NCBI GenBank assembly: GCA_030430915.1
Contig: JAUIKH010000005.1
Span: 1 to 41,637, forward strand
Source: a bacterium
GTDB taxonomy: Bacteria > Patescibacteriota > Saccharimonadia > Saccharimonadales > SZUA-47
Reading direction: 5' to 3'
Length of the DNA stretch: 41,637 bases
Made by a program: the position numbers and the translations under genes. Positions 17,489 to 18,217 of the stretch are shown here, piece by piece. The notes beneath the pieces are model-generated. The model ran no database searches. It was not told where the DNA came from and worked only from the letters and a program-made list of their open reading frames with translations. Within the stretch, counting starts at the first letter, position 1, and each line of letters opens with the position of its first letter.

Positions 17489-17682
17489 GGTCATGGAACC
17501 TGGTCGGGTTTTGGGGTGCTTGGTCGCCTACGGGGAAACAGGTCGCGGTTAGAACTTTTTATCAGGGGTGAAATGAAAAAACCACCATTTCTGGTGGTTC
17601 TAACATTTGTAGCTTGTAATCACTACTGTACTTATTCTCTGAGACTCAGGAGTGAATGAGGGACAGGTCATGGAACCTGGTC
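17489..17682. repeat. 17-bp direct repeat pair between the island and tRNA-Asn
   Basis: GGTCATGGAACCTGGTC occurs at 17489-17505 and again at 17666-17682. The stretch between also has GGTCG twice more. The pair flanks the tRNA terminator and lies at the island boundary, so it may be attachment-site remains. The remaining sequence between 17453 and 17703 shows no coding. Confidence 0.6.
17574..17599 (-). terminator. Terminator downstream of tRNA-Asn
   Basis: Read on the minus strand, AACCACCA, GAAA, TGGTGGTT (17599-17580) form an 8-bp stem followed by a T run. It lies about 105 bases beyond the 3' end of tRNA-Asn and would end its transcript. Confidence 0.8.
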
Positions 17683-17703: not shown

Positions 17704-17778
17704 TGGCTCCGGAGACTGGATTCGAACCAGCGACCTCGAAGTTAACAGCTTCTTGCTCTACCACTGAGCTACTCCGGA
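17704..17778 (-). tRNA. tRNA-Asn (anticodon GTT), CCA encoded
   Basis: The minus-strand sequence folds as a standard tRNA: acceptor TCCGGAG/CTCCGGA, D-stem GCTC/GAGC with a short loop, anticodon loop CTGTTAA (anticodon GTT), T-arm GCTGG-TTCGAAT-CCAGT. The discriminator base is G, as expected for Asn, and the CCA end is encoded (17706-17704). There is an A-G mismatch at the top of the anticodon stem. The accessory island adjoins its 3' side; the GIY-YIG cassette adjoins its 5' side. Confidence 0.95.
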
Positions 17779-17800
17779 AAATTTCACTTTATTCTAGTAG

Positions 17801-17840
17801 CTTGCTCTACCTTCGCTGTACAGCGAAGAGCTACTGCGGA
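17801..17840 (-). repeat. tRNA-Asn 5'-half repeat with palindromic D-loop, copy A
   Basis: On the minus strand this copy reads TCCGCAGTAGCTC, then the perfect 16-bp palindrome TTCGCTGTACAGCGAA, then GGTAGAGCAAG. The outer parts equal the tRNA-Asn 5' half (one G to C change), and the palindrome replaces the D-loop bases AGT. It lies 22 nt upstream of the intact tRNA and overlaps the 3' end of the GIY-YIG gene, supplying its TAG stop. Confidence 0.92.
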
Positions 17841-18079
17841 ATAAAAGATTTAATGAACATCCGCCCGTTACCTGATTTGAGTTGCTTTTCTCTTATCAAG
17901 GCTTCAGAGCGAGTGGCAACTGATTCTTTATAAATCAATTCCCATTCACCCGGAAATCTAGATGTGTAAGACTTGAAGGTATGATCATTGTGCTCCTCTA
18001 GTCTTTTATCTATATTGTGGGTTTGTCCTATATAGTACTTCTTACAATTACCATTGTATATAGCGTATATAAAGAACAT
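17831..18079 (-). CDS. Small GIY-YIG nuclease
   Basis: 82 residues covering one GIY-YIG domain: FFIYAIYNGNCKKYYIGQT (the Tyr...YIG pair), DKRLEEHN (catalytic Arg in DKRLxEH), then WELIYKESVATRSEALIREKQLKS with the metal-binding Glu. This is the standalone URI/UvrC-type class. Its family includes restriction and homing nucleases; the target here is unknown. The gene sits between two 40-bp tRNA-derived repeats, and its last codons (ending FIPQ, stop TAG) are read from repeat A. TAAAAT (18091-18086) ends 6 nt before the ATG, so its transcript is probably leaderless and starts within 15 nt of repeat B. The transcript would run on into tRNA-Asn. Confidence 0.88.
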   Translation of the reverse strand: MFFIYAIYNGNCKKYYIGQTHNIDKRLEEHNDHTFKSYTSRFPGEWELIYKESVATRSEALIREKQLKSGNGRMFIKSFIPQ

Positions 18080-18092
18080 ATAATTATTTTAA

Positions 18093-18132
18093 CTTGCTCT
18101 ACCTTCGCTGTACAGCGAAGAGCTACTCCGGA
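18093..18132 (-). repeat. tRNA-Asn 5'-half repeat with palindromic D-loop, copy B
   Basis: On the minus strand it reads TCCGGAGTAGCTC, the palindrome TTCGCTGTACAGCGAA, then GGTAGAGCAAG. It matches copy A at 39 of 40 positions and matches the intact tRNA exactly outside the D-loop substitution. It lies just upstream of the GIY-YIG promoter. Confidence 0.92.
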
Positions 18133-18217
18133 TTAAAGATAAAGTATACTACTAATTTAGCAAAGTTTATCAGGGGTAGATTATACGGATTTTTTAGGCC
18201 AACGTCAACAAAAGACT

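Follow-up and report, generated by a model that had tools for sequence, protein, structure and literature searches.

A GIY-YIG nuclease cassette at tRNA-Asn of a Saccharimonadales bacterium and its relatives: candidate one-gene elements that enter and restore tRNA genes

In the window, by which we mean the whole 41,637-nucleotide stretch of a Saccharimonadales genome that was analysed, a small GIY-YIG nuclease gene shares the promoter of a tRNA-Asn gene. It lies beside partial copies of that tRNA, each interrupted by the same palindrome, and related arrangements recur at the tRNA genes of many other genomes. Our best explanation, to which we give a probability of roughly 0.6, is that this cassette is a member of a large family of tRNA-targeting, homing-like selfish elements that hold one gene, reside inside tRNA transcription units and regenerate the tRNA they invade. 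A sequence-only reading of this DNA had proposed a tRNA-targeting mobile or homing element. The first part of that proposal is strongly supported by the recurrence of the element, its presence and absence at a single syntenic locus of the family, its tracking of tRNA isotype and its tandem and lone copies; homing driven by the nuclease is a step that we infer.

On the minus strand (17704–18208, read 5′ to 3′), a promoter is followed by repeat B, the GIY-YIG ORF, repeat A and an intact tRNA-Asn. The order from repeat B onwards was already given by the sequence-only reading and is correct to the base. Repeats B (18132–18093) and A (17840–17801) are 5′ remnants of tRNA-Asn, identical at 39 of 40 positions, and their D-arm differs from that of the intact tRNA-Asn only in that the D-loop bases AGT are replaced by the palindrome TTCGCTGTACAGCGAA. 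This palindrome is exact over 16 bp in both repeats (18119–18104 in B, 17827–17812 in A) and extends to 18 bp once the flanking C/G is included. Base-level reading agrees with the earlier description of both the repeats and the palindrome, and also with the claim that repeat A supplies the stop codon of the nuclease gene, a TAG at 17833–17831. The gene itself (18079–17831) encodes 82 amino acids that form a catalytic domain only (Pfam PF01541, E = 1.8e-15), and the cassette holds no second gene. The intact tRNA-Asn(GTT) at 17778–17704, recognised by ARAGORN and by Rfam RF00005, is the last product of the transcription unit. Downstream of it lies an exact 17-bp direct repeat, GGTCATGGAACCTGGTC (17489–17505 and 17666–17682), which ACC(A/C)AGTTCCATGACC-like motifs 3′ of tRNA-Asn in two relatives (G001 and G003) resemble.

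The tRNA-Asn loci of eight other genomes of the family were compared with that of the window, and five or more of them have the window's neighbouring genes (UppP or HIT). The element is present at tRNA-Asn in the window genome and in G001, where the tRNA comes after a remnant and a GIY-YIG gene of 71% identity, and it is absent from the homologous site in the seven other genomes. This comparison of loci with and without the cassette, which had been suggested by the sequence-only reading, thus gave two occupied and seven empty sites. As no near-identical pair of an occupied and an empty genome was found, insertion is deduced at the family level; in a hunt for an empty tRNA-Asn within the same genus, readable copies either had a GIY-YIG gene upstream or sat too near a contig end.

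Across the nine family genomes that were read, the tRNA-Asn unit is always preceded by the same TTGAC-N17/18-TATA(A/C)T promoter, an element that can also be written as TTGAC..TATAATCTACC(C/T)CTG. In the window this sigma70-like promoter (TTGACG-N17-TATAAT, 18208–18180, minus strand) matches the consensus at 11 of 12 positions, in a region where shuffled sequence also yields about two promoter-like sites. The spacing from this promoter is 47 nt to repeat B and 401 nt to the intact tRNA-Asn. The distance from promoter to intact tRNA in empty relatives is 44–48 nt (G005, G008 and G003), or 35–48 nt when G009 is included. As the promoter is as far from repeat B as it is from the tRNA in empty relatives, repeat B marks the native tRNA start. 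The nuclease gene therefore lies within the tRNA transcription unit and shares the tRNA promoter. The palindrome interrupts the remnants, but the intact tRNA-Asn of the window genome is identical to that of three empty genomes (G005, G007 and G010). Sequence immunity of the intact tRNA was thus not seen, and a nuclease directed against intact tRNA-Asn would also cleave the DNA of its host.

Next, we consider how often this arrangement occurs. With the window protein as the sole query, 393 genomes of the same class gave matches at 26 loci in 22 genomes, and an intact same-strand tRNA (Asn, Gln, Pro, Leu, Ser or Glu) adjoins the gene at 10 of these 26. Upstream of the gene, the tRNA-adjacent loci carry a second, defective copy of their tRNA. 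The complete layout of repeat B, GIY-YIG gene, repeat A and tRNA-Asn is found in G039 with the palindrome TTCGCTGGACAGCGAA, and G042 has repeat B, the gene and repeat A with TCCGCTGGCCAGCGGA, followed by another GIY-YIG gene start at the contig end. A profile search gave 80 loci from many phyla, and within the phylum profile matches occur in 261 of 380 genomes, with up to 14 per genome. Among 234 matches on 210 loci, the tRNA lies directly 3′ of the gene in 96 (type I) and directly 5′ in 53 (type II); 75 have neither and 10 are at contig ends. Within the windows tested, 149 of the 224 GIY-YIG genes with enough flank therefore have an intact tRNA beside them on their own strand, and 0 of 224 have one on the opposite strand. 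Some 20 isotypes and many phyla are represented among these tRNA-adjacent genes. The tRNA density of one genome predicts about 2.5 such cases in 224; the difference from 149 is to be read as an effect and not as an exact probability, since the loci include homologues and are therefore not independent, and since the follow-up profile was built from tRNA-adjacent members. The search of relatives for the unit near tRNAs and small GIY-YIG genes, also suggested beforehand, therefore shows that it recurs. Chance or an assembly artefact is ruled out as the source of the layout, because it recurs in independent genomes, with other palindrome variants in G039 and G042 and at many tRNAs elsewhere.

Other known kinds of origin were considered and rejected. 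The cassette holds no integrase gene, and it is the 5′ half of the tRNA that is duplicated and not the 3′ end, which speaks against an integrase element. A phage or plasmid origin was dismissed, as a phage collection gave 0 matches to the protein and plasmids gave one weak match; IMG/VR contigs contained eight distant relatives, one of them with a tRNA nearby. A group I intron was discarded for the window locus, which has no RF00028 match, and the introns in the tRNA-Asn genes of relatives are not around the ORF. At three loci (L123, L133 and L139) such introns (RF00028) interrupt the anticodon loop of a tRNA-Asn gene that lies directly 3′ of a GIY-YIG element, and one genus has tRNA-Asn genes with and without an intron (G659, G673 and G666). 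To our knowledge, tRNA-Asn introns like these are new. HNH-like nuclease genes were also seen right after tRNA-Asn (L231) and after a tRNA-Asn 5′ half (L008), where perhaps an unrelated nuclease occupies the same niche.

On the flank opposite the intact tRNA, part of this tRNA is repeated in 85 of the 96 type I cases and in 31 of the 53 cases of type II. Type I remnants are 5′ parts and type II remnants are mostly 3′ parts, with breaks often around the anticodon arm. This architecture implies that the element must arrive with a copy of one tRNA end and leave the native end behind. Elsewhere in the Asn clade, the gene mostly runs directly into the tRNA, whose own GTAG provides the stop codon. 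As the gene abuts the tRNA there, repeat A and its spacer in the window are probably the lone remnant of a second element copy that has lost its gene; similar double remnants are found in G039 and G590. At four loci (L232, L234, L235 and L236), units of about 100–200 bp that end in an extra copy of the tRNA 3′ end lie 3′ of tRNA-Asn, some of them with a terminator-like hairpin of their own.

Hairpins are a frequent feature of the remnants. Perfect stems of 7 bp or more are present in 50% of 112 remnants, whereas control windows have them in 6% of cases and the corresponding part of intact tRNAs in 5%. Two kinds predominate, TCCGCC..GGCGGA and CCTGCCTGCCGGCAGGCAGG, and the kind follows the nuclease clade, with 7 changes compared with 12–19 in shuffles. 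In 13 homologous remnants of the Asn clade, among which the palindrome of repeat B covaries, all 130 of 130 pair cells are standard, with 11 two-sided changes and 0 one-sided changes. The lack of G-U or half-changed pairs hints, in these small numbers, at selection or copying of the palindrome at the level of DNA.

The same observations bear on the possibility that the nuclease or the hairpin remnant has been domesticated as a host function that regulates or matures the tRNA of the same transcript. Such a role would fit the common promoter and transcript, the position of the stop codon within the tRNA or the remnant, the purifying selection on the protein described below and the fact that the hairpin would form in RNA. 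It is made improbable by the patchy presence of the element at one locus, by its varied isotypes and tandem copies, and by the finding that, within one genus, a single kind of tRNA gene is used by unrelated elements. The palindrome without G-U or one-sided changes, small as the numbers are, is also a better fit to selection on DNA, and folding of the transcript predicts no help of the hairpins to tRNA folding. A related idea, that the hairpins insulate the tRNA by stopping the remnant from competing for its 3′ half, was rejected: in equilibrium folding of the transcript from repeat B to the tRNA, the acceptor-stem probability is near zero with or without the palindromes.

The protein consists of little more than its catalytic domain, as PF01541 spans residues 1–71 of 82. 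Y16, G18, R26 and E64 are invariant columns in the family alignment, so the active-site residues of the GIY-YIG domain are conserved. A separate DNA-binding region, such as the C-terminal part of SegB or I-TevI, is absent from the 82 residues. In profile comparison, the nearest solved relatives are UPF0213 proteins (1zg2 and 1ywl) and the catalytic parts of SLX1. The two UPF0213 chains, which were deposited as hypothetical proteins, are like the window protein in size and in having a single GIY-YIG domain. The nuclease is under purifying selection, with a dN/dS of about 0.09 where dS is unsaturated; between the window and G039 genes dN is 0.17 and dS is 1.9, and dS is saturated in other pairs.

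Within the family, nuclease clade goes with tRNA isotype. On a nuclease tree that is based on few alignment columns, isotype changes 72 times, compared with 99–112 times when shuffled, and the nearest nuclease neighbour has the same isotype in 67 of 142 cases against a mean of 11.6. Vertical inheritance could explain part of this tracking. Near-identical copies (79–100% identity) stand in tandem at a single tRNA at seven loci, and different elements are stacked at one tRNA at L042. In one genus, tRNA-Asn is the site of four or more GIY-YIG elements that are unlike one another, and the position of the hairpin in the remnant differs between them.

tRNA genes are classic integration sites, so that the GIY-YIG gene could in principle be cargo at passive hot spots that take in DNA by an integrase or by illegitimate recombination. 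Copies of the tRNA 3′ end 3′ of tRNA-Asn in several family genomes agree with this. We regard it as very improbable, since the unit is only about 290–430 bp long with GIY-YIG as its sole gene, duplication affects 5′ and 3′ halves equally often, and it is always the same gene family, with the strand reversed in 0 cases.

We therefore return to the tRNA-targeting selfish element. Such an element would consist of a bare GIY-YIG gene and a replacement copy of one end of a tRNA gene. On insertion, the native end would be left as a palindrome-bearing remnant (here repeat B beside the native promoter), and the tRNA end brought by the element would complete a working tRNA, without loss to the host. 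The nuclease would be expressed from the tRNA promoter, within the pre-tRNA transcript. Movement, tandem copies and losses would most likely result from a DNA break made by the nuclease and recombinational repair through shared tRNA sequence. Such breaks and repair through tRNA homology would explain why lineages stay with one isotype, why tandem copies and lone remnants occur, and how the family has spread between phyla. The missing DNA-binding domain and the identical intact tRNA argue against plain classical homing, which keeps the palindrome, in place of the intact tRNA, as a possible substrate. Candidate roles for the palindrome are that of nuclease substrate, of protective interruption or of a REP-like unit; we favour a structure on which the nuclease or recombination would act over a passive scar.

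The palindrome is also dispersed alone and is thus not unique to the cassette. The window genome has 4 further exact copies of TTCGCTGTACAGCGAA in 869 kb. It also lies within two longer repeat families, one at three intergenic sites (L031, L033 and L036, on contigs C2, C40 and C56) and one at two sites near tRNA-Met and tRNA-Lys (L032 and L037, on C38 and C53), where the L037 copy has one mismatch. In the carrier genomes checked TYCGCYNNNNRGCGRA occurs 5–36 times, compared with 0–2 for reversed-pattern controls, and 340 kb of G462 contain many exact solo copies of TCCGCCAGCTGGCGGA, both inside and between ORFs. Across 60 genomes, the median number of TCCGCC..GGCGGA palindromes is 12.5 in those with at least eight GIY-YIG copies compared with 1 in those with one copy (p = 1.8e-9, with phylogeny ignored).

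A sister group of small GIY-YIG genes lies between inverted repeats, ATCCCGTTAGAG..CTCTAACGGGAT (L014, L028, L161, L171, L189, L198, L210 and L211). Its right end coincides with the ATGA before the apparent start of a downstream gene, and its left end often has a matching ATGA(N), which resembles a target-site duplication at start codons. Solo palindromes with TCCCGTTAGAG arms and no GIY-YIG gene between them, of 48 and 31 bp and MITE-like, were seen at L343 and L344 of G493; these were the only two in 11 genomes, both in one genome, and had no start-codon duplication. At L018 and L016, GIY-YIG genes within inverted-repeat arms lie inside apparent 16S and 23S rRNA gene sequence, respectively. 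The second GIY-YIG gene of the window genome (L027, G000:C56:9992-10210) has inverted repeats that start with ACCCAGCACC, like L030 of another genome.

RAYT/REP systems combine a nuclease-type gene, adjacent palindromes and dispersed solo palindromes, and RAYTs are HUH/Y1 enzymes. The cassette likewise joins one nuclease gene to palindromes that are both adjacent and dispersed in the genome, whereas it has no Y1/HUH transposase, its only gene is GIY-YIG and hairpin mobilisation is a candidate activity. A doubtful alternative is that the GIY-YIG protein moves palindromes around the genome by acting on them in hairpin or cruciform form, with the tRNA cassette as the autonomous home and solo palindromes as non-autonomous offspring. 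The solo copies in the window genome and in G462, the agreement of palindrome type with nuclease clade, the inverted repeats and target-like duplications of the sister group, and the structure specificity of bare SLX1-like nucleases are all consistent with it, as is the correlation of palindrome and GIY-YIG counts, uncorrected for phylogeny as it is. However, palindromes also occur in G002 and G003, where no cassette is present at tRNA-Asn, the variant in the G039 cassette is found nowhere else in that genome, and we know of no GIY-YIG enzyme that transposes hairpins. A wider proposal, which we hold only tentatively, is a minimal mobile element made of a lone GIY-YIG domain and a palindrome that would be cut or nicked as a hairpin or cruciform. 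It would colonise and regenerate tRNA genes, invade start codons and rRNA genes in a form with terminal inverted repeats, and spread solo palindromes, as a GIY-YIG counterpart of RAYT/REP.

The element-borne replacement end that we propose for tRNA genes has a parallel in homing genes that carry a replacement target end, such as those at fungal mitochondrial atp6, where the target is kept working and a remnant is left. In the cassette, unlike in these genes, the target is a tRNA, the remnant holds a palindrome and the part brought by the element has not diverged from the host sequence.

In T4/T6, SegB is a free-standing GIY-YIG homing endonuclease at phage tRNA genes, which cuts near tRNAs and drives tandem amplification via microhomology between a tRNA and its own gene (PMC13096335). 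The cassette resembles it in its GIY-YIG catalytic domain, its free-standing gene beside tRNAs and its tandem amplification through short homology, whereas SegB belongs to phages and has a DNA-binding region, and the cassette is chromosomal and encodes a bare 82-residue domain. The parts of that paper available to us survey phages and do not describe tRNA half-copies or palindromes, unlike the isotype-specific tRNA remnants and hairpins of the cassette family. Its discussion states that free-standing GIY-YIG enzymes cut donor alleles only inefficiently, which by analogy could ease the problem of self-cutting raised above. Insertions with GIY-YIG ORFs have also been described in CPR rRNA genes, where they were called unlike group I/II introns (PMC11270868). 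As far as the accessible text goes, they share with the cassette the host group and the presence of GIY-YIG ORFs in RNA-gene insertions outside groups I and II, and differ in that they concern rRNA only and interrupt the RNA gene, whereas the cassette regenerates its tRNA intact. In the literature searched, GIY-YIG elements at chromosomal tRNA genes are not described; as its coverage was incomplete, especially for subscription papers and preprints, we regard the family only provisionally as undescribed so far.

If the main reading is correct, tRNA genes in Patescibacteria, Bacteroidota and other phyla would be the hosts of large-scale parasitism by elements that are only a few hundred bases long, encode one nuclease domain and restore the gene they enter. 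This would extend the link between SegB and phage tRNAs to cellular chromosomes, and would offer a candidate explanation for the short dispersed palindromes of ultra-small genomes. The many isotypes, breakpoints and palindromes would then be natural replicates in which to study how a nuclease without a DNA-binding domain remains faithful to its site.
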